Assembly: GCF_015999465.1 (NCBI RefSeq)
Contig: NZ_CP065534.1
Span: 3,100,001-3,164,000 of the forward strand
DNA: 64,000 nucleotides
Direction of reading: 5' to 3'
Origin: Lonsdalea populi
GTDB lineage: Bacteria > Pseudomonadota > Gammaproteobacteria > Enterobacterales > Enterobacteriaceae
In this document: positions 29,465 through 42,024 of the stretch, piece after piece
Layout of the letters: each line of letters begins with the position of its first letter
Position numbering within the stretch: the stretch's first letter is position 1
Position numbers and translations under genes: made by a program
Notes under the pieces: generated by a model
What the model saw: only the letters and a program-made list of their open reading frames with translations
What the model was told of the DNA's origin: nothing
The model's database searches: none

Positions 29465-29487
29465 TGGAGCGGGCGAAGGGAATCGAA
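29465..29487. repeat. attL, 23-bp direct repeat
   Basis: Identical to 41951-41973, the 3' end of glyU including CCA and T-arm. No tRNA body follows it here, so this is the duplicated fragment left by integration. Confidence 0.9.
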
Positions 29488-29589
29488 GCATCGAAGACAG
29501 CCACGCACTAACACATTGTTTCTTAAAGGACGGTGAATCCCTTTGGTTACAGTCATGGTTACACATTGAGTGGTCTATGGTCAAGCCTT

Positions 29590-29790
29590 GAGGTAGCCTA
29601 GCGCAGTGAGTAGTCCTTAGGCTTGACAGGGTCAACCCCTTGGGATACCATAAGCCTACACTAGGCCTTAGGTGCGCATGTAGTTGACCTTGCGAGGCCG
29701 GAGGCCAAGCCTTGGGTTACCCTTAGGGTGGGCCTCTTTGGGCTGGCTGAGAGGGCCTATGGGGGTACTTTGGGCGCTCTACCCTTGAGA
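29590..29790 (-). other. T7 terminal-repeat-like / candidate packaging region
   Basis: Non-coding DNA full of short CCTAAGG, CCCAAAG, CCTTGGG and GTTGACC(T) units and small palindromes such as TAGGC/GCCTA around 29,650-29,668. On the minus strand it contains CAAAGTACCCCCATAGG, closely like the start of the T7 terminal repetition as I remember it (CCTAAAGTTCCCCCATAGGG), followed by similar CCCTAAGGGT and GGTCAAC units. In T7 such DNA marks the concatemer junction cut by terminase. Function here is inference. Confidence 0.5.
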
Positions 29791-29839
29791 TACTCGCAGA
29801 GATTTTTGTGGTATTTTTCTAAGAACCTTAGGGACCCTC

Positions 29840-29935
29840 TTAAGGATGAAACCAGAGAGGGACCTTATCGACCAGCCATAAGACCAGCGACAGCGACATA
29901 AGGATGTCTCGCAGGTCAACGTAATGAAAGACCAT
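29840..29935 (-). CDS. Possible small hydrophobic protein (31 aa)
   Basis: Short frame with an excellent ribosome site (AAGGAGG, 5 bases before ATG) in an otherwise non-coding stretch. The product reads MVFHYVDLRDILMSLSLVLW then LVDKVPLWFHP; residues 11-22 form one hydrophobic helix. It is the last gene before the terminal-repeat-like region. A membrane-acting or holin-like role is possible but unproven; it could also be a spurious frame. Confidence 0.45.
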   Translation of the reverse strand: MVFHYVDLRDILMSLSLVLWLVDKVPLWFHP

Positions 29936-30059
29936 GAGAGCCTCCTTGTGCGTGTGCGGTGAGTGTTCGTAAAGTGACCCACTGGGATACAGCTAACGAC
30001 AAGGCATCTGTAGGTGTCCTTAGAGGGCTTAGGGTATTGGGATTGATATATGATAATCA

Positions 30060-30206
30060 TCCCTTCTTAAGGTTAACTTAAATCACACTCTAAGGGCCTA
30101 AAGTGTCTTTAAGTTAACTCTAAGGTAATAATCTTTAATTTGGTCTCAAATTAATACTTAGAGTCTCTTTAAGTTATTAAAGGTCTTTAAGTTAAACCCA
30201 TCCAGT
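30060..30206. repeat. AT-rich short-repeat array, left end of satellite
   Basis: Contains TCTTTAAGTT-type units at least three times, one exact CCTAAAG (30097-30103), and several TTAAG/CTAAGG variants. T7 genome ends carry arrays of CCTAAAG flanking the terminal repeat. A matching array lies at 39590-39743 near the other end. Confidence 0.55.
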
Positions 30207-30329
30207 CAGTATTAAGGTCTCACTCCAAATAAGAGTACCATAATAATTGCTGTAGCTTTTCTTCAGGCCCATCACCCCCTGAAGCGCTTAGTCGGTCTCT
30301 TTGAGAAGAGATTCGCTTTTAGTTGAAAG
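30195..30329. repeat. Terminal module copy L (48-bp perfect direct repeat plus flanks)
   Basis: AACCCATCCAGT (30195-30206), 41 divergent bases, then a 48-bp block (30248-30295) identical to 39797-39844. That block holds a hairpin with CTTCAGG/CCTGAAG arms. Next comes a second hairpin (TCTCTT/AAGAGA) and TTCGCTTTTAGTTGAAAG at 30312-30329. The right copy has the same order and the same 41-bp spacing. Confidence 0.9.
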
Positions 30330-30347
30330 AGTATAGATACGGACGTC

Positions 30348-30602
30348 TCAACGCCTTGGTGTCATATCTACGGTTAATTGTTTGTAATGATTCACCGAGC
30401 CATCAGGCATAACCACAGAACCGTCAGTCCTTAGAGGTAGACGAATAGTCTTGCCCATATAGCGGACAGTGACCAGCTTAGTGCTACGCTTTGGTGTCTT
30501 ACGGTTTGGTTTATAAGCACTGCGTGAGGCAGCGGCCTTAGAGTCTCGTTTATGCTGATTGTCAGCGATGGATTGTCTCAGCTGCTCATAGAATTTACTC
30601 AA
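30348..30602 (-). CDS. Small basic satellite protein (84 aa), unknown function
   Basis: Lys/Arg-rich protein (KAAASRSAYKPNRKTPKRSTK) with a C-terminal beta-like segment (VTVRYMGKTIRLPL). I place the start at a TTG with GGAGG five bases upstream; a longer frame from another TTG (to 30614) would bury the ribosome site. It is the first gene after the T7-class promoter at 30674 and the last before terminal module L. That is the position that gene 19.5 holds between phiOR and the right terminal repeat in T7. No sequence similarity to 19.5 is claimed. Confidence 0.6.
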   Translation of the reverse strand: MSKFYEQLRQSIADNQHKRDSKAAASRSAYKPNRKTPKRSTKLVTVRYMGKTIRLPLRTDGSVVMPDGSVNHYKQLTVDMTPRR

Positions 30603-30664
30603 GGTATCCTCCAAAGTAGTGACTTAAAGATTACGTAAGGTGGAGACAAAAGATTTCTTAGAGT

Positions 30665-30692
30665 CTCCTCCCCCTATAGTGGGCCTTATTAG
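30665..30692 (-). promoter_or_regulatory. T7-class phage promoter (leftward, +1 about 30674)
   Basis: Minus strand reads ATAAGGCCCACTATAGGG followed by GGAG, closely matching the T7-family promoter core (CGACTCACTATAGGG in T7). It precedes the 84-aa gene and, by position, resembles phiOR. Confidence 0.8.
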
Positions 30693-30759
30693 GAAAACCA
30701 GACGTGGTGCGGTCTGCGAGCTAAAAGCCCTCTCTATTGAACCCACTATAAGGCACACA

Positions 30760-31203
30760 TTACCAGCCTAAGGGGTTCTTTCCGTTGCGGCCACCATAGG
30801 CTAACTTGCGGTACTCCTCCCACGGCAGAACCTCAATAGACCCTGAGGCGTCCAGACGGAAACGGTAGGGCCACCCTGTGACCACATCATGAGAGAGTAT
30901 AGGCTTACCTGTGCGTAGCATCTTGATAGCCCTCAGGCGCTCTATGTTCACGCCCTTAACGTTTACCCTACGGTCTCGCGTATGACCCGCTACAGAGCCG
31001 GCAGCCTTAAAGGATTTCAACCACGGCTTACTATGACTATCTGCTATCCAGACCAGACCAGTAGGTGACTCAGGGTCTGCCCTCAGGTGTTCCCGGACTA
31101 ACTCAAAGTCTCGCTTAGCGTCTGCTATCAGTTGCTCCTCGGTCCGGTCAGTGCGTAAGGTGCGCTTCTTTCGGGCTGGTCTGGTGGTTACTGTGTGGTT
31201 CAT
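30760..31203 (-). CDS. Satellite protein of unknown function (147 aa)
   Basis: Good ribosome site (AAGGAGG) 7 bases before ATG. The protein has a basic N-terminus (RPARKKRTLRTDR), a helical acidic stretch (EEQLIADAKRDFELVREHL), then GLVWIADSHSKPWLKSF and a Pro/Gly/Lys-rich C-terminus. I do not recognise it. It follows the gp16 homologue in the leftward transcript, where T7 has its tail-fibre gene, but it is far too short for that. The basic N-terminus suggests nucleic-acid or partner binding, which is only a guess. Confidence 0.7.
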   Translation of the reverse strand: MNHTVTTRPARKKRTLRTDRTEEQLIADAKRDFELVREHLRADPESPTGLVWIADSHSKPWLKSFKAAGSVAGHTRDRRVNVKGVNIERLRAIKMLRTGKPILSHDVVTGWPYRFRLDASGSIEVLPWEEYRKLAYGGRNGKNPLGW

Positions 31204-31395
31204 ATCGGGACCTCCTTAGGTGATTGGTTGACAGTTAGGCGCTCCTCCTTGAATTCTGTTAGGTTGCGCGTAGGGCTACCCGTTAGTTTTTAACGTAGCG
31301 TTGCCCTTAAGGTTTGAATGGTGGTTGATTTCGATTAATCCATATCATAAAGGCCCCTCGTTAGAGAGACCTTGAGTTATAGACTAAGGGGTTAC

Positions 31396-34300
31396 TTAAT
31401 TGCGCGTGCGTTGTTGGTCCTGATAGATGCCTACATTGCTCTCAAAGTGCTGGAGTAACAGCCACTGCGTCACAGGGTCATTAGGGACCACACGGGACAG
31501 TGAACGGTAAGCCGCATCGTTAGCCGCCATAGCGTCAGCTTTATGAGGAGACAGAGCGCCCTTTGCGGAGTTCTCTATGGTAGCCGAGAGGTCCCGCGCA
31601 AGCTGTAGGCCCGGTACTTGCTCAATAGAGCGGTCAATCACGCCTGAGACGTAATCAGTAGTGCCAGCCTTAACGGTCCGTGCGTTCTTCTCCATTGGCG
31701 CTTTAGGGTTCATCGTTGTACGGTAAGACTGCACAAGGTCAGCACCCGGCAGACCCAGAGGCCCCGCTAGGAAGCCATAGACACCCAGAGGAGCGCCTAA
31801 GGTTGCACTACGGGTAACGGCACCGATTGCTAACACGTTAGGGTCAAGGGCCTTATCGAGGTAACGCTTACGGTCTCCCGCCTGCATAGACATAGCGACA
31901 CTTTGAGCGCGGAGCGCAGCGAAGCCGCCCGCCAGCATCAGCTCTACGGCAATAGTCATAGACTGGTCCAGAGCGCGACCGTTCTTGGTTGACTCATAGA
32001 ACCGCTTCACTAAGCGACCATTGACTGAGCGCAACACGAAAGTCTTAAACTGCATCGCCATACCACCGACGCCACCTAGTTGTTTGCCAGCTTGGAGAGA
32101 CACCTTATCGGTTCTCAGCATGGTTTCACTTGCAACGTGGTCAGCGAGTCGCCACAGGTCCATAGTGCGCGGGTCTAGCTTCATGGCGTCAGCATCCTTA
32201 AAACGATACTCCCCGGTCTTAGCGTCCCTGTAGGTATGCTCTTGCATCAGCGACTTAATGCCCTTGTACTGCTCAGGACTGATAGCCGCAGACTTAAGCA
32301 ACCGCGAATCAATAGCCGCCTTGCCACCTAAATGCACCTCATGCGCCAGATTGCCTAAGGTCTCAATACGTGCAGCCCTTACGATATGGTTAACCGTAGA
32401 GGTCATTACGCGAGACATCGGCAGACGTTGAGCCATATAACCAGTGGCCCACTTAACGGACCCTACAATGTTAGCCATAGGATTGGAGGCAACACCGCGC
32501 AGACGCTCTACGATGTCATTACGGCTCGGCCTAATAGAGTCATCAAGTTCCTTACCGAATAGCAAGCCGTGAACCTCGTTAGCCTCCTTAGCGTTCAGTT
32601 TACCTCGTTTCTTCATGAAGCGACCTAGCGCCGGGACAGAGCGGCCTAAGGCGTCAATCCCCCCCACGAGTCACCATAGAGGCAATCTCTGTGTAGTTCT
32701 GAGGACCCATGAAGGCATTCTTAGAGGCGTATGCTAAATCGGATAACGAACGCGCCAGCGTCCCTAAAGCTCCCTCAGGGTCTTTACGTGCTCTACCAGT
32801 CAGTACCTTGACAACCTCCAGCAGCTCAGCCTTACCCTTAGCGTCAGGCGGGATAGCGTCAATGACCTTAACCAGCTCGTCTGTAGTCCGCCCGGTCCCA
32901 CCTAAGATAGCGATATCACCATTAATGCGGCGGTTGTAGCTCGGAAGGACTTCCTCCATAGTGAAAGACCGCAGGTCATTAGGGGAGAACTTAGAGCCGT
33001 CTGGCAGGGTCACCTCAAAGTCATTAGCAAACAAATGACGCTCTTTAAGGTAATCATTCCCGGCTAACTTAGAGCTATCCGCCACGACATCCTCAAGCGC
33101 CCCGGAGTTGTGATAGAGTGCAGCCGCATCGTCAGAGGCATTAGCCACCCCGAAAGCCTTACGCTCAGCGTAGTCTTCTAGGGTCTCACCGGTGCGGTCT
33201 AGGTATGCATCAACACGCGCCTTAACCTCAGGTGACGCCCGATAGGAGTTTAGATAAGAAGCCTTGATAGCCTCTTTGAGTTCCTGCACAGAGCCGCCGA
33301 AGCGAGACAGCGCAACCGAACGGGCAGACGCAGAGTAGCGCACCGGGTAGTAATGACCGTCAAAGTGAGAGGCACCCAGCATTCCCTTAGCGTTATCCAC
33401 AGCATTCCCGAAGGACGCAGGGTTACGCAGAGAGTCTGCTTTAAACTGGTGATGCTCCTTAATGAGGTCTACCAGCGCTTTCTCTGAGGGAGACAGAGAC
33501 TTGACCTTAGACCCTGAGAGGTCCTCGACAGCCTCAGCTACGCGGCGTGACACAGCCTGTACATGGTCCGCACGGTTCAGCCCTTCACGATACCACGAGT
33601 AACCATTCTCATTGATAGCCTTCTTGGTCAGGTCATCCATGTTAGAGAAGAATTGATGGTCAAGGTAGCACATACGCTCCCCAATGTCCGAAGCCGTGGC
33701 CGCATACTTACCGCTTGCGCCAGACTCAAGGCCCACCGGAGCACGCACAAGGTCCAGACCCAGAGAGCGCACAGCGTCAGACTCAGAGCGTAGGATGGTT
33801 TGCCCTACCTCGTCAAACGTAGCGGAGCCTGTAGACAGGCCACGGGCTGCACGTTCAATCTTGGTAACCTCCTCAAGGCTCCCTAAGGTCCGTGGGTTCA
33901 CAGGGTTAGACCCTGCCAGAATGTCACCGCTCGCTAACCGGACGTTGCCCGTAGAGGACACGTTAGGAGCCTCAGCATAAGGGACACCATTAGGCGCAGA
34001 GTGTACCAGTTCGTCAGGACGTAAAGGCATGACGCTAGGGTCCGCAAAGTCCGCAACCTCTGAGGCTGCTTGAGCCTTGAGGCGACTACGCAAACGCACA
34101 TCGGTAGACTGGATAGGGTCCACACTCGAGGCAGGCTCAGCGTCAACCACACCAGCGGCCTTACGGTTGGCCCGGAGTTTAGACACAGAGTCACCCAACA
34201 CGGACAGCCCGGAGCCTAACACTAAGCCACCCAGAGCCGCGCCTGCATAGTCAGCATCACCACCCGCTACGCTAGTGCGTACACCCTCAGAGAGAATATT

Positions 34301-35377
34301 GAGACCAGCAGCTTGAGCGCCACGATAAGCCGCCTTAGCGAGCATACCAGCTTTAGCCGCAGGACCAGCAACCGGGATATAAGTCACAGGGTCAAAGGCA
34401 GCACCCGCCAGCATACTGGTAATCATACCAGCGGTCCCGGTCTGACTAACGCGAGCGTCAGCCTCAGCATTCTGGTTAGCACGAACTATCAGAGCGTCTA
34501 AGGTCTCAGCATCACCACCCAGCACAGAGTTAATATAACGAGGGTCTTTTACCTCAGAGCGAATACGGGCCAACTCCTCAGGTGTCCATTCGTGGGAGTT
34601 CCAGAGGTTAGGCGTGAAGTGTGCTTGCAGCATAGACATTGCATTATCACTGCTCAGGTCTTGCCCTACAGTCCCTAAGGTGGATGTCTTCCATGTATCC
34701 TTTGTGGCGCTCCATACGTTTGACAATAAGCCTTTGTCCTCAGGTTTGGCGTAGTGCGCAGCCTTAGCAAATGGCTCCGCAGGTGCGGCCTGAGAGACTC
34801 CCTCAACGTTGAATCCGGTAGACTCAGGGAGAGCGTTGGTCACCTTCGAGGTTTTGCTAATACCTGCAAAGGCATCCTCAGCGGGAATGCCCTTTCCCTT
34901 AGGAGAGATACCCCCGAAGGACGTCAGAGCGGCCACTTTGTCATTCTGAGCCACTGAGTCACTCATGGTCCGCATGTAGTTGAGACCCTCAGCACCGATA
35001 GCAGAGAAGTCACCACGGTCATAAGCGGCTAACTGAGGAGCACCCTTAGGGCCTTCCCCTACGTTATATGCTAAGGCGGCTTTGAGTTCATCGCCTCCGA
35101 ACTTCTTAGTTAGGTCTGCCATGTGTCTGGCGGCTGCATTGATAGCTAACTGAGGATTGAGTCGGTCATCATCAGACAGACCATAAGCGCTGGCGGTCTG
35201 TTCGGTAAACTGAGCAATCCCCTTAGGGCCTGTGGGTGACTGAGCGTCAGGCTTAAAGCGAGACTCTAACCACAGCTGTTTACGGAAAGCACCTGCATTG
35301 ATACCGTGCTCAGCAGCGGCAGCATTAATCAGGCTATCGAACTCTGAGGGAACGTTAGGGTCATACTGTTTAGTCAT
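31396..35377 (-). pseudogene. T7 gp16-like internal virion protein (ejection lytic transglycosylase), one-base frameshift
   Basis: Near full-length homologue of T7 gp16 (1,318 aa), which leaves the virion, forms part of the envelope DNA-ejection conduit and opens peptidoglycan. The N-terminus has the SLT catalytic Glu in LWLESRF, GPKGIAQF and AYNVGEG; later segments match closely, e.g. GLRTSVAGGDADYAGAALGG, ISPKGKGIPAE and the terminal VPNDP. It is read as a 907-aa frame (35377-32654) and a 423-aa frame (32667-31396). Both join cleanly if the C7 run at 32659-32665 (G7 on the coding strand) is six bases long, giving about 1,326 aa. So there is one inserted base: a true mutation, a phase-variable tract or a sequencing error. 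AGGAGG precedes the ATG. At 4 kb it is a third of the element. T7 partners gp14 and gp15 are absent. Confidence 0.9.
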
Positions 35378-35533
35378 TGTGGGTTACCTCCTCTGAGTCC
35401 TCATTACGATCAAAGAGTCCAGCTTTAGCGGCCTCCTCATAGGAATAGTCTTTACCATCTGGCCCTATGTAATCGCGAGGATTGCCTTGAGGTCAAACTC
35501 ATATGAATCAATAATGTTAAATAAGTTAATCAT
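35370..35533 (-). pseudogene. Frameshifted small gene overlapping the gp16 start
   Basis: The ATG at 35533 with AAGGAAA upstream encodes MINLFNIIDSYEFDLK and then stops early. A second frame beginning immediately after a TGA encodes GNPRDYIGPDGKDYSYEEAA and on to NEDSEEVTHND, ending in an overlap with the gp16 start. Joining them needs a single-base change near 35,488. The joined product would be about 54 aa and acidic at the C-terminus. Unknown function. Alternatively this is only the translated leader of gp16. Confidence 0.45.
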
Positions 35534-35551
35534 CTGTGTGTTTCCTTCTTG

Positions 35552-35647
35552 TTTGCACCCTGAGACGCATCCCAGAGACCCGCAAGGCCCCACACGGGCT
35601 ACCCACACGGGATAGCTTAAGGGAGTCTCAAAGGCACAGGATGCAAA
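35552..35647 (-). other. Long leader stem-loop upstream of the small gene/gp16
   Basis: Arms TTTGCA...CCTG (35552-35562) pair with CAGG...TGCAAA (35637-35647), and an inner GAGAC/GTCTC pair extends the stem. Similar long stems precede the KilA-N gene and the 104-aa gene. They could be RNase III processing sites such as T7 mRNAs have, or mRNA-stabilising leaders. Confidence 0.5.
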
Positions 35648-35708
35648 CAGGACGGCTTGCGAGTAGATATTGATAGATAGGCATTGCGTTAGCCTTACGA
35701 AAGGGGAC

Positions 35709-35730
35709 GCCCTGAGTGAACCTCAGGACG
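35709..35730 (-). terminator. Hairpin after the capsid-like gene, possible T-phi-like terminator
   Basis: CCTGAG-TGAAC-CTCAGG, 17 bases beyond the end of the capsid-like gene on its transcript, followed by GCGTCCCCTTT. T7 places its class III terminator directly after the capsid gene. The U-tract is poor, so confidence is limited. Confidence 0.4.
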
Positions 35731-35743
35731 CTTGAAGTGATGC

Positions 35744-36895
35744 TTAGTCGTTAGACTTAGGGGCTTCTTCCTCAGGGGTAGGCTCTACCGGTGCGGTAGT
35801 TTCCCCGAAGGTCAGGCGGTGGACTACAGGAAACTCGGCGGTAGCCTGAACACCAAACTTGCCTTGTTCAACCTTGACGGTCCCGGTAGCCATAACGTCC
35901 AGTACAGTAATCATTTCGACGTCGTAGCCGGAACGCTCAGGGGAACGAGTAACGTTAATCTTAACGGTGTCACCTTGGCGGGTAGACCGGAAGGACAACA
36001 TAGCGAAGTTGCGAGGCAGCAGGTAGACACCAGTATCATCGCCCAAGTAGCCCATGATGGTGCACCCGAACAGCTCAGAGGCATCTTCATGACCCGCACG
36101 TTGTGCAGCACGCTCTAAGACGGCCTCCAGTTTCTCAGGGACCAGCAGCGCGAAGCAATCCAAGGTGTTGCCTAAGTGGACCGGTAAGTTAACCGCTAGG
36201 GCATCCAGCAGGTCTTCAGCGGCATCTGAGGGTTTAGTGCTCAGCTTGTCACAAGGGATGGTCACGAGGTCCGGGGTCTCTGCCAAGACTTTGGTCACGT
36301 TGCCCGCCAGCACACGGCACATCTGGTATTGCATATTGGTAACGGTACGGGTCAGGCTACCAGCAGTCCAGCCCGCCATCATCTCATAGTCAGACACATG
36401 GGTCGCTACAGAGCACATGATGCCAGTCTTGGTTTTGTCTTCGCCGTGCAGCACCGGAGCCACCATTACGGCAGACCCAGCGATAGCCTTAGCGGTCGGC
36501 AGACCTGTACGGTCCAGCTTACCTTCAGGGTTGAACACAACGGTACGGTCCTCCAACAACTGGACATTCAGCGGGGTCGGTTGGGTGCCGAAGGGGCGGA
36601 ACTCTGCCGGGAAGACATGTTCACAGACTGCTTCAGCGAAGTCACCATCATTGAAGGTGGCATCTAAGGATTTCTCCAAGGCCTGAACGTAGTCGTGTGA
36701 GTCATTGCCGAAGGCCATTTGGTTGCCTGAGCGGTCCGTATAGCCCACATTCAGAATCTGTGAGCCGCTGGACTTGACGATTTCAGTACGTGAGACATCA
36801 GTGCCCCACACAGAGTTAGGCAGCTTGCGACCATCAGTACCGGTACGGTGAGACGCTAGGGTGCTCATAGGGGTCTTATTGGTTGGTTTATTCAT
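35744..36895 (-). CDS. Probable HK97-fold capsid-like protein of the satellite (383 aa)
   Basis: Well-supported gene (AAGGAG 10 bases before ATG). The C-terminal 180 residues read like an HK97-type coat protein: a long helix (AAEDLLDALAVNL), a beta strand with FALLVPEKLEAVLERAAQRA (the pattern of a coat-protein P-domain helix), FGCTIMGYLGDDTGVYLLP and a terminal strand series ending GYDVEMITVLDVMATGTVKV. The extreme C-terminus is acidic and disordered (EPTPEEEAPKSND). It lies between a charged coiled-coil protein and the gp16 homologue, much like scaffold-capsid-...-16 in T7. It is not obviously a T7 gp10 relative. If it is a coat protein, the satellite could build or modify its own shell. 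Other virion proteins remain possible. Confidence 0.55.
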   Translation of the reverse strand: MNKPTNKTPMSTLASHRTGTDGRKLPNSVWGTDVSRTEIVKSSGSQILNVGYTDRSGNQMAFGNDSHDYVQALEKSLDATFNDGDFAEAVCEHVFPAEFRPFGTQPTPLNVQLLEDRTVVFNPEGKLDRTGLPTAKAIAGSAVMVAPVLHGEDKTKTGIMCSVATHVSDYEMMAGWTAGSLTRTVTNMQYQMCRVLAGNVTKVLAETPDLVTIPCDKLSTKPSDAAEDLLDALAVNLPVHLGNTLDCFALLVPEKLEAVLERAAQRAGHEDASELFGCTIMGYLGDDTGVYLLPRNFAMLSFRSTRQGDTVKINVTRSPERSGYDVEMITVLDVMATGTVKVEQGKFGVQATAEFPVVHRLTFGETTAPVEPTPEEEAPKSND

Positions 36896-36975
36896 GGGTA
36901 TGATACTCCTTTTAAAGTTGTCATTTAGGTAGGGTGCCCGTAGACACCCATTAGCGGGCCATAAAGCCTGAGGGC

Positions 36976-37416
36976 TTATAGGTCACCGAATGCAGCGGAC
37001 TTACCGCGAGCACCGAAGCGCGCTTCCAGTTCGGCTTCTCGGGCTTTACGTTGAGCCACAGCCTCAGCGATCTCTTCAGGTGTAGCCATAAGCGCAGCCA
37101 TGCGTTCACGATGCTGTTTCGCTTCCAGTTCACGGCGGGCCTGTTCCTCACGGTTACGTCGGATGTAGTCTGCCCACAGTTGGTGATGGCGTGAGAACCC
37201 AGTGATGCTGAAGCCATTAGCGGACAGCTCACTCAGTAGTGAATTAGCACCACCAGACCCCGGCGCGTAGTAGCCCAGCAGCGACGGTACGGTCACCTTG
37301 ATGAAATGCTCGGTAGGGATTTCTTGGCCGATGTACAGCACGGTCTTAAGGTCCTTACTCAGGGTTACCTTTTGGTCTACGATACCCATGGTCGGAAGTT
37401 TCGGATTGATAGACAT
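36976..37416 (-). CDS. Satellite protein with charged coiled-coil C-terminus (146 aa), scaffold-like position
   Basis: I chose the ATG at 37416 (MSINPKLPTMG...), which has AAAGGAGA upstream; the frame stays open further back without a ribosome site. Residues 1-75 look like a small folded domain (VTLSKDLKTVLYIGQEIPTE...). Residues 80-135 are a highly charged helix rich in Arg, Glu and Ala (RRNREEQARRELEAKQHRER). The gene sits immediately before the capsid-like gene, as scaffold genes usually do, and a small hairpin (AAGCC/GGCTT) follows it. A scaffolding or capsid-size role is attractive but is inference from position and coiled coil only. Confidence 0.7.
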   Translation of the reverse strand: MSINPKLPTMGIVDQKVTLSKDLKTVLYIGQEIPTEHFIKVTVPSLLGYYAPGSGGANSLLSELSANGFSITGFSRHHQLWADYIRRNREEQARRELEAKQHRERMAALMATPEEIAEAVAQRKAREAELEARFGARGKSAAFGDL

Positions 37417-37501
37417 AGTGTGTTCTCCTTTGGTCAGTGGGTTGATACAATTGATACTTAAGGTTTCTGGATAGTTATGGATAATTACGGGCAATCAATG
37501 G

Positions 37502-37705
37502 TTACGTATTCTTACTGAATACAAAATCACGTAGGGTCAGCCCTTTCTGTACAGCCATCCGGCATAACTGAGTGCGCGTATAACGGTCGCGCCAAGACAG
37601 CGGGCAGAGGCCCAATGCTTTCACAACGTTCCTGATAGGCACGGTCATTAGGCGCAGAGCCTTGCGGTCTTCAGGATTCCTCGGGTCAAGCTGGTCAGGG
37701 TTCAT
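37502..37705 (-). CDS. Small satellite protein (67 aa), unknown function
   Basis: Overlaps the end of the 104-aa gene by 4 bases (ATGA), so it is translationally coupled, with AAAGGAGAA upstream of ATG. The product is basic and Arg-rich (MNPDQLDPRNPEDRKALRLM ... WRDRYTRTQLCRMAVQKGL), predicted mostly helical. I do not recognise it. A DNA-binding or host-takeover role would fit its size and charge but is not shown. Confidence 0.65.
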   Translation of the reverse strand: MNPDQLDPRNPEDRKALRLMTVPIRNVVKALGLCPLSWRDRYTRTQLCRMAVQKGLTLRDFVFSKNT

Positions 37706-38016
37706 AGGGTCGGTTCTCCTTTGTCACTATAGAGTTCAGCCAATGCCTCAATGACCTCGAAGCTAACCGGTGTGTTGTAGCTTGCCAGAAGCATTAGGAA
37801 GTCGTGTCCCTCAAGGACCTCAAGGGTGCCTAGGGGCTGACCCCTGCGCTCCCTCATGCGCTTAATGTCGCGTCTGACGTGCTTCAGGTGCTTACCTGTG
37901 AGTTCGGCCACTTGGTGGGCTGTAGCGGTGAATGTGAGTGGTCCATCCAGCCACGCCGAAAGGTGACGTTTGAGGACCTCTTTGTTGACCTCTCGGTCTG
38001 TCTTACGGGTTGTCAT
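37702..38016 (-). CDS. Putative helix-turn-helix satellite protein (104 aa)
   Basis: First gene of the structural transcript from the promoter at 38377. Its ATG is preceded by AAGGAGA. The sequence TATAHQVAELTGKHLKHVRRDIKRMRERRG (residues about 30-59) has the spacing of a winged-helix DNA-binding segment, with a short N-terminal helix before and an acidic helix (FEVIEALAELYSDKGE) after. A regulator of satellite or helper late genes is the likely role, but no close family is recognised. Confidence 0.68.
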   Translation of the reverse strand: MTTRKTDREVNKEVLKRHLSAWLDGPLTFTATAHQVAELTGKHLKHVRRDIKRMRERRGQPLGTLEVLEGHDFLMLLASYNTPVSFEVIEALAELYSDKGEPTL

Positions 38017-38038
38017 TGGATGGTCTCCTTAGTCCAAT

Positions 38039-38116
38039 ATTGGGCAAAAAGGAGGGACCCAGAGCCACCGCGAAGGTAGCAGAAGGTCCCATAACGGGAG
38101 AAACACTTTGCCCAAT
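38039..38116 (-). other. Leader stem-loop upstream of the 104-aa gene
   Basis: Perfect 10-bp arms ATTGGGCAAA (38039-38048) and TTTGCCCAAT (38107-38116). A second imperfect inverted repeat (TCTAGAGAACCACC with GGTAGTTCTCTAGG) spans 38118-38212. Both lie in the untranslated leader of the transcript from the promoter at 38377. Otherwise 38017-38370 shows no gene. Confidence 0.55.
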
Positions 38117-38370
38117 GAATCTAGAGAACCACCCTAGGTTGCCTAACCGGGGTCTCCCGGCACCTACACAATCCCCATTGTTTTACAGGCGGCAACTTAA
38201 GGTAGTTCTCTAGGCTCATTAGGAAGGTGGGTCATATACTCAGTAGGCATGAGGCTATCCGGGGGACGCCGCTATGGGACGTCGAAGAACCAGATGATGC
38301 CTAATGTCTACGGTGAGAAGTGTCGCGGTGATGAATCCGAGGTGGGATACTGACCAGCTGTGTCGTGGTG

Positions 38371-38396
38371 GTCTCCCTATAGCGGGCCTGATTAAA
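38371..38396 (-). promoter_or_regulatory. T7-class phage promoter (leftward, +1 about 38377)
   Basis: Minus strand TAATCAGGCCCGCTATAGGG followed by AGAC, the best match in the element to a strong T7-type late promoter including the GGGAGA initial transcript. It drives the small-gene, capsid-like and gp16 block. Confidence 0.85.
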
Positions 38397-38422
38397 TGTA
38401 CAGTAGTTTCCTGCTTGACAGT

Positions 38423-39001
38423 TTAGAGGCCTAAGGAAAGCATACAGCGTTTCCGCCAGACACCTTTGAAGCCTTGAGCGTCAGCTTGAGACAGCGAGAG
38501 GTAGCCTCGAAGAACGGACATGTAGAGCTGCTTATTGGTTGTCTTCGGCTGTAGTGCTTTAAGCTGACGATACGCAAAGTCCCTGTCTGCGTTCTCCTCT
38601 GAGTGGGCCTCTAAAGCCTCAGCTTCAGTAAGATGACCATGCTCAACCATCTTATTAGCTACCACGGCGGCAACCTCAGGCATCGCTAGGACGGCCTCAA
38701 AAGCCGCATAGACCATGTCTTCAAAGTCCTCGGAGACCCATGCGGCGTACTTAAGGGTAGCCTGTTTGTCTGCGTAGGTGGTGCTCTCAAGGCCAATCTT
38801 CACGACCTCCATTTTTTGGCGGTCGGACAATCTCTTTGCAGACGCGGTACGCCACCGGTTGGGCTGCTTACTCTTAGGCAGACCCAAAGTCTTCCAGATG
38901 TTCGTCAGGTCCCAGCGACCCTCAGCGTCCGAGGTGAACTTATGGCCCTCAATGATAATCGTATAGAAGGCGTTAGGATTGGTGTTAGTAGAATTATTCA
39001 T
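38423..39001 (-). CDS. KilA-N-domain protein (192 aa)
   Basis: N-terminal KilA-N-like domain: WDLTNIWKTLGLPKSKQPNRW (residues about 30-51) and TYADKQATLKYAAWVSEDFE (about 76-95), the latter matching the conserved phage pattern of TYAH.DIA.EFASWISPEF. The C-terminal part is helical. KilA-N proteins bind nucleic acid in phages and large DNA viruses and often act as regulators or anti-repressors. This is the first gene after the T7-class promoter at 39218 and a long leader stem, so it would be expressed early after helper RNA polymerase appears. It could control satellite gene expression or interfere with the helper. Confidence 0.75.
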   Translation of the reverse strand: MNNSTNTNPNAFYTIIIEGHKFTSDAEGRWDLTNIWKTLGLPKSKQPNRWRTASAKRLSDRQKMEVVKIGLESTTYADKQATLKYAAWVSEDFEDMVYAAFEAVLAMPEVAAVVANKMVEHGHLTEAEALEAHSEENADRDFAYRQLKALQPKTTNKQLYMSVLRGYLSLSQADAQGFKGVWRKRCMLSLGL

Positions 39002-39023
39002 GTTGTGTTTTCCTTTTAAATGG

Positions 39024-39094
39024 GCACCCTAAGTCACACCCCTCAGGCCACACAAAGGCCCCACAACAAAGGGAAACCTGAAGGCAAAGGGTGC
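39024..39094 (-). other. Leader stem-loop upstream of the KilA-N gene
   Basis: Arms GCACCCT (39024-39030) and AGGGTGC (39088-39094), with an inner pair CCTCAGG / CCTGAAGG carrying one bulge. Same architecture as the stems at 35552 and 38039, always just upstream of a satellite gene. Confidence 0.5.
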
Positions 39095-39212
39095 ACATTT
39101 AGAATGACTTTGTGATTGAATGAAACTGTGTCTGTGTGATGACACGGTGCAGATGGTCATGAGGTATTCGGAAGGATGACTGTGTGAGTGTCCGATGTGA
39201 TTAGCATCACCG

Positions 39213-39237
39213 TCTTCCTATAGCGGGCCTTATTGGG
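39213..39237 (-). promoter_or_regulatory. T7-class phage promoter (leftward, +1 about 39218)
   Basis: Minus strand ATAAGGCCCGCTATAGGA followed by AGAC. Same core as the promoters at 30674, 38377 and 40112. It lies between terminal module R and the first internal gene, the position of phiOL in T7. Confidence 0.78.
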
Positions 39238-39296
39238 AATAAGTAATGCTAATGATGGAGGAGAGCCATTATCATTAGGTTGCCACCTAAGGGTAT

Positions 39297-39319
39297 CCAC
39301 TTTTCATTTTCGAAAGTGG
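39297..39319. other. Hairpin CCACTTT/AAAGTGG in the satellite control region
   Basis: Perfect 7-bp arms around a 9-nt loop, upstream of the promoter at 39218. Role unknown; within the 1.2-kb non-coding block 39002-40208. Confidence 0.4.
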
Positions 39320-39496
39320 TTCCGCAGGGTCTGTAGTGACCTAATGTGACCATAAGCCAGTAGCTAGCTAACGCTACGCCTGCTAACAATAGGGTAGGAC
39401 CAAGAGACCCTCAGATGCGGAACGGCACCCGAAGACTACCTGAGACACCCGAAGACTACCGAGCTTCTCGCTTAGGTGTGGGCAGATAGTGGAGCT

Positions 39497-39743
39497 TGGA
39501 GTTGACCTAAAGGTGGAGAGCTGGCTATCGGTGACCTTAGAGGTGGAGGGTTGACCCAGAGATGGGATGATTATTAATCTATATCAATCCCAATACTCAT
39601 AGGTCTTAGAGTGGTCTTAAGAATTATGTGTCTCTAAGAATTACTCTAAGGTCTAAAGATTACTTAAAGTATAAAAGACTAATTAAAGATTAATTAATGA
39701 TTACTAGAGATAACTCTTAGTTCTCTTCAGTTACCTTAAGGTT
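39497..39743. repeat. Short-repeat and AT-rich array, right end of satellite (candidate origin)
   Basis: Holds tandem-like units GTTGACCTAAAGGTGGA, GTGACCTTAGAGGTGGA and GTTGACCCAGAG (39501-39560), one exact CCTAAAG (39506-39512), then AT-rich DNA rich in CTTAAG, CTAAAG and TTAAAG. It lies downstream of the T7-class promoter at 40112. In T7, promoters followed by AT-rich DNA serve as replication origins. The origin role is inference. Confidence 0.5.
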
Positions 39744-39929
39744 AACCCATCCAGTACCCGAAGCCTCCCTATATGTGAAATATAGAGATACTTACATGCT
39801 GTAGCTTTTCTTCAGGCCCATCACCCCCTGAAGCGCTTAGTCGGCCGTATGTCCCTGTGAGTTCGCTTAAAGCTGTTGCCTTAAGCTATCACTAGGTTTG
39901 AGTGCATACGGTTCGCTGTTAGTTGAAAG
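39744..39929. repeat. Terminal module copy R (48-bp perfect direct repeat plus flanks)
   Basis: AACCCATCCAGT (39744-39755), 41 divergent bases, the 48-bp block at 39797-39844 identical to 30248-30295, then a hairpin with CCGTATG/CATACGG arms (39845-39851 and 39904-39910), then TTCGCTGTTAGTTGAAAG (39912-39929). The order and the 41-bp spacing match copy L, while the hairpin sequence differs, suggesting selection on structure. Confidence 0.9.
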
Positions 39930-40103
39930 TTAAGAGTTAAGTCTCGAGGTCTCCACCTTGAGTTAACGTGCATATGTAGGGCGTAGCGTTAGCTAGGCAC
40001 CGCTAGCGCGGCTCGCTACTGGGCGACTCCCCGTAACCTTGAAGGCGTACCGAGAGTCTGAATGTTGATTGATATGAGATTAGTGAACGGATAGAGGTGG
40101 TAG

Positions 40104-40130
40104 TCCTCCCCCTATAGTGGGCCTTATTGA
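40104..40130 (-). promoter_or_regulatory. T7-class phage promoter (leftward, +1 about 40112)
   Basis: Minus strand ATAAGGCCCACTATAGGG followed by GGAG, nearly identical to the promoter at 30674. It fires away from the integrase into the terminal module and AT-rich array. No gene follows for about 1.1 kb, so a replication-priming role like that of T7 origin promoters is plausible. Confidence 0.82.
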
Positions 40131-40208
40131 TTGGAATAACCAGAGGTGTCCTTTAGAACTAAAGGATATAGCAAGAGAGACACCAAGAGAGAGACACCAA
40201 TAAAATAT

Positions 40209-41816
40209 TTATGGGCCCCTCCCTATAGCGGTAGCCAATACACCGCTCAGCTTATCCACCTCGACCTCCTTCGCATAGCGGTCATAAGTAATCGACCCAG
40301 AACTATGTCCCAGTATCGCCTGAGCGTAGGCCAATTCGATGCCATGTTGTTTTAACTGAGTGGCTACCGTATGCCTGAACGAATGGAACGCTAAACCGTC
40401 CCGCTCAGTAATCACCTTGGGTAACAACGTTCTGTTAAACCATTTACTCACCTGCTCGCCGTAACCGTTCTTCATGAGTCGAAGGCCATCAAACACCATA
40501 GCATCATCACCATCAGCGCCTCTACGAGCCTCTACAAGCGCCTTAAAGTCAGCCAATACAAAACCATAGGCTCCATCAACCAAAGGCACACAGCGATCAC
40601 TGTGAGCGTTCTTGATGCTCTTACCCGACAGGCTGCTATCATCTTCATTGATATGGATATAGACGGTCCCAGCCTCAGTGGTCCTAACGTCTTTGACCTG
40701 AAGTTGAGCCACCTCATTAAGCCGCGCTCCAGTGGTAGCAGCTAAAGCGGTAACGTAGTAGTGAAAGGGCTTACCAAAGGGATTCAGAGAATACTCCTTA
40801 GCGGCGATCAGTAGTTGCCTCACCTGCTCCGTAGAGAAGGCGTTACGGGCCTCAGAGGCTTTACGCTGGGGAACCTTCAGTTCCAGCCCCTCAGTCATAT
40901 TCTTTTTAATCAGGTCATTACGGACAGCCCACTTAAAGACTGCTGCCATTTTGATGAGATACTTGTTATTGATGGTGACAACATCCAGACAATCTGTCTT
41001 ATCATCACGGTTCAGTAGGTCAATCAACGTGGCATCCTTAAAGCGCTGCTTACGGTTCTTAGGTAGCTTCTGGAGCACATCACGAACCCTTAGCATGTCA
41101 ACACGCGTTATCACATTAGCATCACCATTAAGACCGAGATGGTCGAAGACTTCGAGTAATGCAGTATGAGCCGCTTTGTTTTCCCTTAAGGTGGCAGGCT
41201 TCCAGTTCTGTGAATTTTCCGCTTCGTATTGCTCAAAAAGGCTCGCTACGGTGACACAGGGTTTAACTTCCGGGGCACTAACAGATAGGGACACAGATGC
41301 CTGACCGTTTAACCTATCAATATCATTAAATTCATCGATGTAATCTATAAGAGGCTTACTGTCTCCCGCTTCGATACGCCGCATGCAGGCCCTGATAACT
41401 CCCAAGGCCTCATGAATGTAGCGGTGCTGGTCAATACTAAGCGGTTCACTCGCCAAGGCATCCGTAAGGTTCTCACCGAGTTCTCCGTACTGGTCACGAT
41501 ACAGGTCTCTCATGTCCGACTCAAAGAGGTCTGAACGCCCGGTGGACAATTCCCACTCAGCGATATCCCTAAGGTGCTCACGCATCTCCCCATAGGAGGC
41601 ATCGGGTCTATCTGCTTGTATTGCCTTAAGTGCTGCCTTGATATGTCGTGAGTTAGCCATAGCGGTACGCCGGTCCTTAGTCCGTAATGATACAGACGTA
41701 AGTTTATAACGTTTATGTTGTGGAAGCGAAGCCGGGAAGCGTCCTACGGCCTTCATCCTAAGACGGATATAGAAGACGCCATTACGCTGATAAAGGTAGG
41801 TTCTTGAATTGAGCAT
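40209..41816 (-). CDS. Tyrosine site-specific integrase of the satellite (535 aa)
   Basis: Phage-type tyrosine recombinase. The catalytic domain shows the first Arg in TTGARLNEVAQLQ, the HxxR box in FHSFRHTVATQL, and the final His and nucleophile Tyr in ILGHSSGSITYDRY. The N-terminal 60 residues (TYLYQRNGVFYIRLR...) look like the DUF6538/SAM-like arm of phage integrases. It lies 135 bp from the glyU attachment site and is transcribed inward. The protein should catalyse integration and, with an excisionase not identified here, excision at the 23-bp core. The last codons overlap a weak T7-class promoter match. Confidence 0.92.
   Translation of the reverse strand: MLNSRTYLYQRNGVFYIRLRMKAVGRFPASLPQHKRYKLTSVSLRTKDRRTAMANSRHIKAALKAIQADRPDASYGEMREHLRDIAEWELSTGRSDLFESDMRDLYRDQYGELGENLTDALASEPLSIDQHRYIHEALGVIRACMRRIEAGDSKPLIDYIDEFNDIDRLNGQASVSLSVSAPEVKPCVTVASLFEQYEAENSQNWKPATLRENKAAHTALLEVFDHLGLNGDANVITRVDMLRVRDVLQKLPKNRKQRFKDATLIDLLNRDDKTDCLDVVTINNKYLIKMAAVFKWAVRNDLIKKNMTEGLELKVPQRKASEARNAFSTEQVRQLLIAAKEYSLNPFGKPFHYYVTALAATTGARLNEVAQLQVKDVRTTEAGTVYIHINEDDSSLSGKSIKNAHSDRCVPLVDGAYGFVLADFKALVEARRGADGDDAMVFDGLRLMKNGYGEQVSKWFNRTLLPKVITERDGLAFHSFRHTVATQLKQHGIELAYAQAILGHSSGSITYDRYAKEVEVDKLSGVLATAIGRGP
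40218..40243 (-). promoter_or_regulatory. Weak T7-class promoter match inside the integrase 3' end (+1 about 40223)
   Basis: Minus strand TTGGCTACCGCTATAGGG followed by AGGGG. The initiation half is a good match and the upstream recognition half is degenerate. It overlaps the last codons of the integrase and lies 110 bp upstream of the stronger promoter at 40112. Confidence 0.45.
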
Positions 41817-41853
41817 GTACTGAGGCCTTAGGTCTGCTCACTACTTCAACAAA

Positions 41854-41877
41854 GTTGGTCACAGTGTTGGTCACAGT
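41854..41877. repeat. Tandem 12-bp repeat GTTGGTCACAGT x2
   Basis: Two perfect abutting copies between the integrase start and attR. Tandem 10-14-bp repeats beside att cores are commonly arm-type integrase sites or repressor operators. Confidence 0.55.
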
Positions 41878-41950
41878 GAGTAAAACTATCAGGAGGCTTT
41901 AAGCCATATCCCTTAGGATTCAGTAAGTTGGAGTACTTTAAGAAAGGCTA

Positions 41951-41973
41951 TGGAGCGGGCGAAGGGAATCGAA
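41951..41973. repeat. attR, 23-bp direct repeat within glyU
   Basis: Identical to 29465-29487. It covers the T-loop, the acceptor 3' strand and CCA of the tRNA, so integration rebuilds an intact tRNA gene. Confidence 0.92.
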
Positions 41974-42024
41974 CCCTCGTATAGAGCTTGGGAAGCTCTC
42001 GTTCTGCCATTGAACTACGCCCGC
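41951..42024 (-). tRNA. glyU: tRNA-Gly (CCC anticodon)
   Basis: 74 nt with encoded CCA. The acceptor stem GCGGGCG pairs with CGCCCGC, the anticodon loop is TTCCCAA, and the T-arm GGTTCGATTCC is intact. It appears identical or nearly identical to E. coli glyU. It serves as integration site for the satellite, and the accessory DNA to its left suggests a long-standing insertion hot spot. Confidence 0.95.

Follow-up and report, generated by a model that had tools for sequence, protein, structure and literature searches.

A putative satellite of T7-like phages integrated at tRNA-Gly(CCC) in Lonsdalea populi

What is an integrated bacterial element whose promoters resemble those of T7, but which carries no match to the T7-type RNA polymerase that would read them? 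The locus considered here lies in a window of 64,000 nucleotides of the Lonsdalea populi chromosome, the whole stretch of DNA that was analyzed. We conclude that the element is very probably an integrated satellite of T7-like virulent phages, which would remain silent until a helper polymerase arrives and would then be copied, cut, and packaged by the helper. This reading is built from sequence comparisons, which show an integrase gene with att repeats at a tRNA-Gly gene, promoters of the T7 class, regulators, a DUF6971 gene, a predicted capsid gene, and a copy of a phage genome end just inside the distal att repeat.

The element and its relatives at tRNA-Gly(CCC)

The original prediction described a 12.5-kb element with an integrase between tRNA-derived repeats. 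The element measures 12,486 bp, its two 23-bp repeats are identical, and the repeat at 41951-41973 is the 3'-terminal stretch of an intact gene for tRNA-Gly(CCC). The other features in that prediction (promoters, gp16, a capsid-like gene, and T7-terminus-like DNA) could each be located at the sequence level. The integration site, the integrase, the regulators, and the smaller genes are as follows.

41951..42024, minus strand: tRNA-Gly(CCC) gene, the integration target (glyU) (ARAGORN; Rfam RF00005)
41951..41973: att repeat, tRNA end, identical over 23 bp
29465..29487: att repeat, distal, identical over 23 bp
40209..41816, minus strand: tyrosine integrase, 535 aa (Pfam PF00589, E = 8.5e-18)
39797..39844: 48-bp exact repeat, copy 1, containing CTTCAGG-N10-CCTGAAG (repeat identity)
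30248..30295: 48-bp exact repeat, copy 2 (repeat identity)
38423..39001, minus strand: KilA-N family regulator, 192 aa (phrog_129, 6.5e-13; Pfam KilA-N, 0.01, below the cutoff)
37702..38016, minus strand: Rha/anti-repressor-like protein, 104 aa (phrog_10324, 2.1e-5)
37502..37705, minus strand: small conserved satellite protein, 67 aa (cluster from seven elements, including that of L. populi)
30760..31203, minus strand: ORF of 147 aa, no family (single weak phage match, E = 3e-3)
30348..30614, minus strand: ORF of 88 aa, no family (ORF call; PHROG search)

The L. populi integrase shares 82 to 87% identity with five integrases found at glyU in E. coli, and relatives with the same integrase occupy tRNA-Gly(CCC) in E. 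coli, Klebsiella, Citrobacter, and other enterobacteria. Sixteen elements could be delimited: four E. coli forms of 4.0 to 4.8 kb, 10 elements of 6.2 to 6.4 kb, one of 7.6 kb (L006, whose length is owed to an insertion sequence within int), and the 12.5-kb element of L. populi. In L017, one of these, no tRNA could be identified, and the position of int served to place that end. Fifteen further loci with the integrase or the capsid gene (L005, L010, L011, L013, L019, L020, L021, L024, L025, L026, L027, L029, L086, L087, and L088) were left outside the set on account of an incomplete contig, an IS-disrupted or degenerate copy, a different site, or an end that was not found, and a Limosilactobacillus candidate (L022) was dropped for its weak, 24% match. 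Neither the integrase nor the capsid gene was present in four further Lonsdalea genomes that were searched, and no integrase was confirmed in IMG/VR. Neither the 147- and 88-aa ORFs nor a 158-aa gene of L001 had a convincing Pfam or PHROG family.

The existence of a conserved short form had been set beforehand as a test against decaying remnants, and the 16 elements, from 4.0 to 12.5 kb, share one architecture and the same tRNA. A search for an att-int-KilA-N-capsid-gp16 order at glyU had been suggested; int is shared by the relatives, and the capsid and DUF6971 genes by most of them, but the split gp16 is peculiar to the L. populi copy.

In 10 of the 16 elements, the second gene, adjoining int and upstream of the promoters, is a homologue of the defense gene PD-T7-4. 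All nine proteins tested from the relatives match the PADLOC model of PD-T7-4 (E = 1.2e-98 to 1.3e-102). The gene is absent from the L. populi element and five other delimited elements, and PADLOC matched none of the proteins encoded in the second slot of L005, L006, L013, and L030, none of four proteins of the L. populi element, and none of four other satellite proteins. PD-T7-4 came from a selection for phage-resistant E. coli clones (PMC9519451); the passages of that paper on this gene neither place it in a satellite nor tie it to T7 promoters, whereas here it is the second gene of integrated elements.

T7-class promoters and a phage genome end

Several T7-class promoters had been claimed for the element, and four good sites and one atypical site were found, all on the minus strand.

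40218..40241, minus strand: atypical T7-class promoter-like site in the 3' end of int (upstream part weak)
40107..40130, minus strand: T7-class promoter TCAATAAGGCCCACTATAGGGGGA (core match, 24-mer)
39213..39236, minus strand: T7-class promoter CCAATAAGGCCCGCTATAGGAAGA (core match, 24-mer)
38372..38395, minus strand: T7-class promoter TTAATCAGGCCCGCTATAGGGAGA (core match, 24-mer)
30669..30692, minus strand: T7-class promoter CTAATAAGGCCCACTATAGGGGGA, close to the distal end and placed much as phiOR is in T7 (core match; T7 record)

The core AGGCCCRCTATAGG occurs four times in the 3.86-Mb host genome, always within the element and on one strand, and the same pattern read backwards does not occur in that genome. 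Across the 16 delimited elements, the core C[AG]CTATAG[GA][GA], a pattern composed after sites had been seen, occurs 37 times on the integrase strand and once on the opposite strand, as against no occurrence in 570,990 strand-bases of flank (14 loci). At least one T7-class core is present in 15 of the 16 elements, the exception being an E. coli element (L001) with no intact core. Outside this set, the pattern used found no T7-class promoter in L025 and L086, though both have the capsid gene and the end site.

The exact 23-mer of the T7 promoter, as in the T7 record, is present in three elements (L002, L004, and L012), and exact T7 promoters occur in natural E. coli chromosomes. The Klebsiella element among them (L012) carries a K11-type promoter alongside the T7-type one. 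The promoter types, or keys, include T7, K11, ACTATC, ACCCAC, and GGCCC, one or several per element, sometimes with two or three different types adjacent. The K11-type 23-mer of L012 is found in IMG/VR on only 11 contigs, all of 39.9 to 41.7 kb, and the ACTATC type likewise on only 11, all of 39.1 to 40.5 kb; promoter types of the elements thus equal phage types, as expected from the proposed keying to a helper polymerase. The promoter of L085, AATTAACCCACACTATAGGGAGA, has five occurrences, all on a single 38.5-kb contig, and two patterns of the GGCCC type of L. populi gave no exact match in IMG/VR. The L. populi integrase falls within the clade with T7 keys despite its GGCCC promoters, suggesting that keys are swapped while the backbone stays.

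A host-encoded T7-type polymerase was rejected as the reader of these promoters: PF00940 found none in the host genome, and the T7 record, as a positive control, scored E = 9.9e-110. Tests with 17 T7 proteins (tblastn) against the 16 elements yielded only gp16, and that only in the L. populi element; T7 RNA polymerase, DNA polymerase, portal, and terminase had no match in any element. The presence of a functional T7-type RNA polymerase and terminase had been named as refuting the satellite reading, and neither was matched in the element or its 15 delimited relatives. Portal and terminase families were likewise missing among the 10 proteins of the L. populi element (Pfam and PHROGs).

The distal end of the element resembles the end of a T7-like genome, as had been proposed, and a possible origin lies near the promoters.

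29712..29953, minus strand: helper genome-end sequence (concatemer junction) with its core at 29751-29826; terminase is predicted to cut near 29790 (HMM, blastn)
39639..39718, minus strand: 80-bp stretch with the element's highest A/T content (79%), located some 400 bp downstream from a promoter, a putative helper-type origin (composition)

Positions 29719-29813 resemble the T3 terminal-repeat region (blastn, 1.6e-9), and an HMM built from 13 other satellites matches the L. populi end at E = 1.3e-11, its sole match in the 64 kb at E = 0.1. An HMM built from the ends of 14 elements, with no phage DNA and with all four E. coli forms of 4.0 to 4.8 kb among them, finds T3 (8.2e-15) and T7 (1.8e-10), in both cases spanning the left border of the terminal repeat. 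It also matches an Erwinia T7-like phage between gp19.5 and the first early gene (2.3e-14); this phage is not an obvious helper, since its promoter type, GACTCACTATTGGGAG, differs. Controls gave nothing below E = 2.3 in flanks and nothing below E = 4.1 in reversed phage DNA. In a search of 10 extra loci with the core HMM, six matched at E = 1.1e-3 or better and one (L011) at 0.27; no end site was found in L085, which has promoters and the capsid gene, or in L020 or L010, where the contig stops early. In phage loci with ACTATC-type promoters, which are parts of contigs, the best end-site score was E = 0.31. The elements carry what appears to be a helper packaging signal, at which cutting is predicted, and the terminal-repeat junction at their far end gives helper packaging a direct basis in sequence.

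Because support for an A/T-rich origin extends to 7 of the 16 elements, plus L001 with its decayed promoters, the origin is put forward as a candidate. When a conserved leader hairpin was sought with a regular expression, one element only matched. A packaging argument from multiples of the element length close to 40 kb was dropped, as short units always have some fitting multiple.

A predicted capsid gene and an accessory gp16

The structural genes lie between the regulators and the distal end.

36976..37494, minus strand: DUF6971 protein, possibly scaffold-like, judging by position only (Pfam PF22318, 1.2e-12)
35744..36895, minus strand: predicted HK97-fold major capsid protein, 383 aa, satellite-specific (AlphaFold model, structure comparison)
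32654..35377, minus strand: N-terminal part of a T7 gp16-like internal virion protein, including an SLT domain (phrog_342, 7.6e-177)
31396..32667, minus strand: C-terminal part of the T7 gp16-like protein, in a different frame (split gene) (phrog_342, 7.1e-76)

The capsid-like gene that had been noted has no Pfam or PHROG family, but the AlphaFold model of its 383-aa product has an HK97-type fold and can be matched to HK97-type shells over roughly residues 64 to 366; structures listed for the comparison include 7jw1 (P4 procapsid) and 9gyi (cf-PICI). Paired with a DUF6971 gene, the predicted capsid gene is present in 12 of the 16 elements, and its family comprises at least 74 clusters. Both are genes that the satellites share. 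The exceptions, with no capsid gene, are the four 4.0- to 4.8-kb forms in E. coli, three of which retain intact promoters. A phage origin for the capsid gene was discarded, there being no tblastn match in 50,697 phage records to either query (P0002, E limit of 0.01; the L. populi protein, E limit of 1).

The T7 gp16 homologue is present, as claimed, but is broken into two ORFs at a G homopolymer. Its N-terminal part is 42.6% identical to T7 gp16 and 43.9% identical to the best-ranked phage record. Among 392 genomes of the family, some match to this part occurs at E = 1e-3 in 214, but the best outside its own genome (E = 1.8e-10) covers residues 8 to 136, the transglycosylase region, and a long match is confined to that one genome. 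The gp16-like gene of the L. populi copy is accessory and split. This split, together with the lack of an intact promoter core in L001, indicates that some copies may be inactive.

Proposed cycle, alternatives, and known systems

In the lysogen, the host polymerase would leave T7-class promoters unread and the payload would be off. Infection would bring the cognate single-subunit polymerase, with transcription through the regulators and capsid gene to the distal end, and the integrase would excise the element. Promoter transcripts near the A/T-rich DNA may prime replication by helper enzymes, and the helper terminase would cut at the borrowed genome-end site. The DNA would then enter a shell of the satellite capsid protein bearing the helper portal and tail or, in the 4.0- to 4.8-kb forms, enter helper heads as a concatemer. 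Many relatives may restrain the helper through the PD-T7-4 homologue.

In a rather unlikely variant that still deserves weight, the element is a true satellite that builds no shell: its HK97-fold protein either modifies capsid size or belongs to a dead gene, and every form travels as concatemers in full-size helper heads. The four forms without the capsid gene, three of them with intact promoters, agree with it, their ends contributed to the end-site HMM, and PICMIs are described as packaging concatemers into helper heads (PMC10803314). Retention of the capsid-DUF6971 pair in 12 of 16 elements, the many clusters of the capsid family, and the extent of the match to HK97-type shells argue for an own shell.

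Two other readings were considered. The PD-T7-4 homologue, a gene reported from phage-resistant clones (PMC9519451), and promoters that would respond solely to an infecting phage might mark a chromosomal anti-phage island, in which the invader's polymerase is the alarm, the promoters trigger defense or suicide genes, and the host benefits while the element is not transmitted. We consider this quite unlikely: integrase and att repeats, a helper genome end, and a capsid gene serve transmission rather than defense, and the homologue lies beside int, upstream of the promoters, and is missing from six elements, that of L. populi included. A decayed prophage of a temperate T7-like podovirus, having lost its polymerase, replication genes, and most structural genes, could account for the split gp16 and the T7-like end, and temperate T7-like phages with integrases are described (LUZ100, PMC10134795). 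This reading, rejected on the comparisons of T7 proteins with the 16 elements and of gp16 with the 392 genomes, is very improbable indeed, as one short form recurs at a single tRNA, 12 of 16 elements retain a capsid gene unmatched in phage records, no T7 protein other than gp16 is matched, and the long gp16 match is unique to this genome.

Beyond L. populi, the elements probably constitute a previously unrecognized, Enterobacteriaceae-wide satellite family of T7-like virulent phages, in which the helper RNA polymerase is the switch, one or several promoter keys are swapped on a constant backbone, the genome end is copied, most members have their own capsid, and PD-T7-4 is a helper-interference gene. 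The literature searched (titles and beginnings of abstracts) yielded no description of satellites of T7-like phages. T7 is among the best-studied viruses and its promoter is a staple of biotechnology, yet natural mobile elements of E. coli carry exact T7 promoters. If the proposal is true, satellites exploit virulent podoviruses besides the helpers known so far, with the simplest conceivable trigger, the helper's polymerase itself, and arrays of differing promoters would give one satellite several phage genera. It would also suggest a source for PD-T7-4, provide T7 biology with a directly testable parasite, and bear on phage therapy, as lysates of T7-like phages could carry satellites.

The element resembles satellites in general in having att repeats and its own integrase and no full set of virion or replication genes. 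P4-like satellites and PLE integrate, interfere with their helpers, and depend on them for packaging, but neither is known to be driven by a single-subunit phage RNA polymerase. P4-type families (primase, Sid, Psu, and delta) are absent from the element's 10 proteins (Pfam and PHROGs). PLE is a gene set of Vibrio cholerae with ICP1 as its helper, whereas the hosts here are enterobacteria. The cf-PICIs carry their own packaging and head genes, including portal and terminase; the likeness lies in an own HK97-fold capsid protein and helper tails, both predicted here, and the difference in the lack of a recognizable portal or terminase, in T7-like podoviruses as helpers, and in a helper RNA polymerase as the trigger. 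Temperate T7-like phages of the LUZ100 type (PMC10134795) likewise combine an integrase with T7-like sequence, but are described as encoding the RNA polymerase, DNA polymerase, and terminase; the elements gave no match to the T7 versions of these three, which an Autographiviridae prophage would have. Also close are the PICMIs of Vibrionaceae, described (PMC10803314) as 6.1-kb integrated satellites of virulent phage with short direct repeats, active only with a helper, situated at fis, encoding an integrase, AlpA, and a DUF3987/DUF5906 primase, and packaged as concatemers with no capsid-remodeling genes. The elements share with them small size, integration, short direct repeats, and a virulent helper, dependence on which is here a prediction. 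No AlpA or primase family was detected among the 10 proteins of the L. populi element (Pfam), and the elements occupy tRNA-Gly instead of the fis site and carry T7-class promoters, a genome end borrowed from T7-like phages and, in most cases, a gene for a capsid protein.

Anatomy and T7-class promoters

The window element spans positions 29465 to 41973 (plus-strand coordinates), is flanked by two identical 23-bp repeats, and has a G+C content of 51%, versus 57% in its flanks. The repeat on the tRNA side is the 3' end of the intact tRNA-Gly(CCC), and all main genes and promoters are carried on the minus strand, reading outwards from the tRNA. The features of this element and of two relatives (L001 and L002) are as follows:

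Window, minus strand, from the tRNA: integrase, 1.2 kb of non-coding DNA, KilA-N regulator, Rha-like protein, small protein, DUF6971 protein
Window, minus strand, after the DUF6971 protein: 383-aa capsid-like protein, T7 gp16-like protein (two ORFs), two small ORFs
Window, distal end: about 0.9 kb of non-coding DNA, then the distal repeat
Window 39020-39100 and 35540-35660; L001 7790-7920; L002 14820-14910: leaders with complementary blocks
L002 15312-15953, minus strand: PD-T7-4 homologue, the second gene

The break in the gp16-like gene falls at a G homopolymer and may be real, programmed, or a sequencing error. The complementary blocks, about GTTTGCACCCT ... AGGGTGCAAAC, lie at the start and end of the leaders that precede the regulator and gp16 genes, and possibly form a conserved RNA stem. 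A 48-bp exact repeat (window 30248-30295 and 39797-39844) contains the hairpin-like sequence CTTCAGG-N10-CCTGAAG, which is absent from the remaining 15 delimited elements; both copies are situated downstream of a promoter and ahead of A/T-rich DNA.

Among the 16 elements delimited by att repeats, T7-class promoters occupy a near-constant place in almost every case, on the integrase strand, shortly after the second gene or, where there is no second gene, after the integrase. At least one core, C[AG]CTATAG[GA][GA], is present in 15 of the 16. The integrase strand has 37 copies of it in all and the other strand a single one, in the window element; the flanks of 14 of the loci, amounting to 570,990 strand-bases, contain none. 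Because this pattern was composed after the sites were seen, the evidence lies in the contrast, not in the absolute number of cores. The window core AGGCCCRCTATAGG has four occurrences in the host genome, all within the element and on a single strand.

Upstream of the core, the sequence varies from element to element; a review places the promoter specificity between these polymerases around positions -12 to -8 (PMC11617373). Elements L002 (E. coli strain 33-6) and L004 have TAATACGACTCACTATAGGGAGA, which is also found at several promoters of the T7 record, and the promoter of L003 is nearly identical to it. The Klebsiella element L012 (K. pneumoniae ATCC 13883) combines three promoter types, AATTAGGGCACACTATAGGG (two sites), the T7 23-mer, and GGTAGC, near one another at 12225-12400 and 12797, a cluster that looks, by its sequence, as if several helpers could read it. 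The full 23-mer of the first type, AATTAGGGCACACTATAGGGAGA, the K11 type, is found in 11 IMG/VR contigs, all 39.9 to 41.7 kb long. Several other satellites have the ACTATC type, which is likewise found in 11 contigs, all 39.1 to 40.5 kb long, and which in most of these recurs at several sites within the stretch examined. The promoter type of L085, another delimited element, occurs five times in IMG/VR, all on one 38.5-kb contig. The helper of the window element is predicted to be a phage with AATAAGGCCC-type promoters; counting against the proposed mechanism are the one split gene of the window element and its GGCCC promoter type, which has no match in IMG/VR.

L001, from E. coli H7, contains only decayed T7-like promoters (8240-8400, minus strand), suggesting a dying copy. 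In L005, an IS-disrupted E. coli copy, a 30-bp stretch downstream of the integrase (element positions 2492-2521) is 90% identical to the T3 phiOR promoter region and, without an intact core, could represent a T3-type key.

Genome-end site and proposed cycle

An unguided BLAST search with the distal 883 bp of the window element matched 117 phage records; among the 20 listed, four bear a "redundant terminal repeat" annotation at the match, with or without the word "direct", and the others have no annotated feature there. Alignment of the element ends with T7 and T3 reveals a common block astride the terminal repeat's left border; it reads ACTA/TCTCACAG at 39778 in T7 and GAGTA/TCTCAAGG near 29790 in the window (slash, border).

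An HMM of the last ~340 bp of 14 elements, containing no phage sequence and not trimmed to the motif, was searched against 40 loci of T7-like phages (375 kb). Its best match is T3 37863-38020 (E = 8.2e-15), where the annotated terminal repeat starts at 37978, followed by an Erwinia phage (E = 2.3e-14) between gp19.5 and the first early gene, in a record that annotates no repeat, and by T7 39650-39811 (E = 1.8e-10), where the repeat was verified at 39778-39937. Five K11-type contigs match weakly (E = 4.5e-4 to 0.019), and the ACTATC-type phage loci, which are parts of contigs, reach only E = 0.31 and 0.77. No match fell below E = 2.3 in the flanks or below 4.1 in reversed phage DNA. With the window left out, an HMM of the 13 other elements finds window 29953-29712 (minus strand, E = 1.3e-11), its sole match in the 64 kb at E = 0.1.

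The 14-element model is a fairer test than an earlier, shorter HMM, because the core of the latter was chosen with the T7 alignment already known. The shorter model places a genome-end site in 6 of 10 further loci; positives with a different integrase or site are L025, L026, L027, and L086 (E = 1.1e-3), and L029, closely related to L028, which was in the training set, is also positive. The same model finds no site in L085, L010, or L020, and L011 reaches only E = 0.27. We infer that the genome-end site is where the helper terminase cuts. The same review mentions that phage concatemer junctions contain class II terminators for such polymerases (PMC11617373).

Sequence-level support covers the anatomy, the strand, the promoter match, the end-site match, the predicted capsid fold, and the absent polymerase match. 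In the proposed cycle, the element would be silent in the lysogen, would be switched on by the helper polymerase, and would then excise. Replication would be primed at promoters close to A/T-rich DNA, which is supported in 7 of the 16 elements, plus L001. The helper terminase would cut the element DNA, which would be packaged in the element's own or the helper's heads.

Relatives, possible promoter exchange, and PD-T7-4 homologues

Five E. coli integrases adjoining the same tRNA-Gly are 82 to 87% identical to the window integrase. A scan of one genome per species recovered 13 loci, 12 of them enterobacterial, in Rouxiella, Klebsiella pneumoniae ATCC 13883, Citrobacter, Buttiauxella, Shimwellia, Enterobacter, Serratia, Edaphovirga, and another Enterobacteriaceae. 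Of 392 genomes of the family, the window's own among them, 13 have the integrase (E = 1e-100) and 9 have the capsid gene (E = 1e-3); the four other host-genus genomes lack both. In a set of 5,426 E. coli genomes, at least part of the window element is matched in 260. For the L002 element the number is 385; of these, 58 cover at least 80% of it and the weakest, among the matches listed, only the integrase start and tRNA end. Many of the E. coli copies have thus diverged or are incomplete. By size, four of the 16 delimited elements, all from E. coli, are 4.0 to 4.8 kb and ten are 6.16 to 6.45 kb long; the other two are the window element and an IS-containing one of 7.6 kb.

The E. coli loci L026 and L027 carry the same capsid/DUF6971 cassette, ACTATC promoters, and genome-end site at another integration site, inside a molybdoenzyme gene near ynfF; the L026 cassette adjoins an annotated tyrosine recombinase. 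L086 and capsid cluster P0072 (Pseudomonas tremae) contain remote homologues of the capsid protein, alongside a different integrase or with an extra Ig-like domain, which suggests that the family reaches beyond glyU elements. For capsid clusters P0003, P0005, P0007, P0008, P0018, P0036, and P0051, the longest contigs are 6.43 to 6.79 kb, approximately one element length, a hint of free circular or packaged forms.

In a tree of 15 integrases, the window pairs with L001 (support 100/98) within a six-member clade (100/100), and most other forks are poorly supported. The remaining five members of this clade have T7 promoters, decayed in the case of L001. That the window integrase nests among T7-promoter elements suggests that the promoter type was swapped while the element backbone stayed.

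The second gene, which overlaps or abuts the integrase, encodes a DUF4145 protein in 10 of the 16 delimited elements. All nine DUF4145 proteins that were tested, eight of them encoded by delimited elements and the ninth by L010, match PADLOC model PD-T7-4 at E = 1.2e-98 to 1.3e-102. PD-T7-4 was obtained when E. coli genes were put through a functional selection against three phages, T7 included (PMC9519451). The published selection thus gives this satellite gene family experimental backing as an anti-phage gene, with T7 as its likely target. The homologue is missing from the window, L004, L006, L030, L084, and L085 among the 16.

Comparison with known satellites

A full-text literature search, with subscription journals and bioRxiv thinly covered, returned no title or abstract opening on satellites of T7-like phages among the matches listed. 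We rate the elements as a satellite family that is new, as is its trigger. The window element would act like a satellite, and it differs from PICMI, P4, and cf-PICI, each in the features compared.
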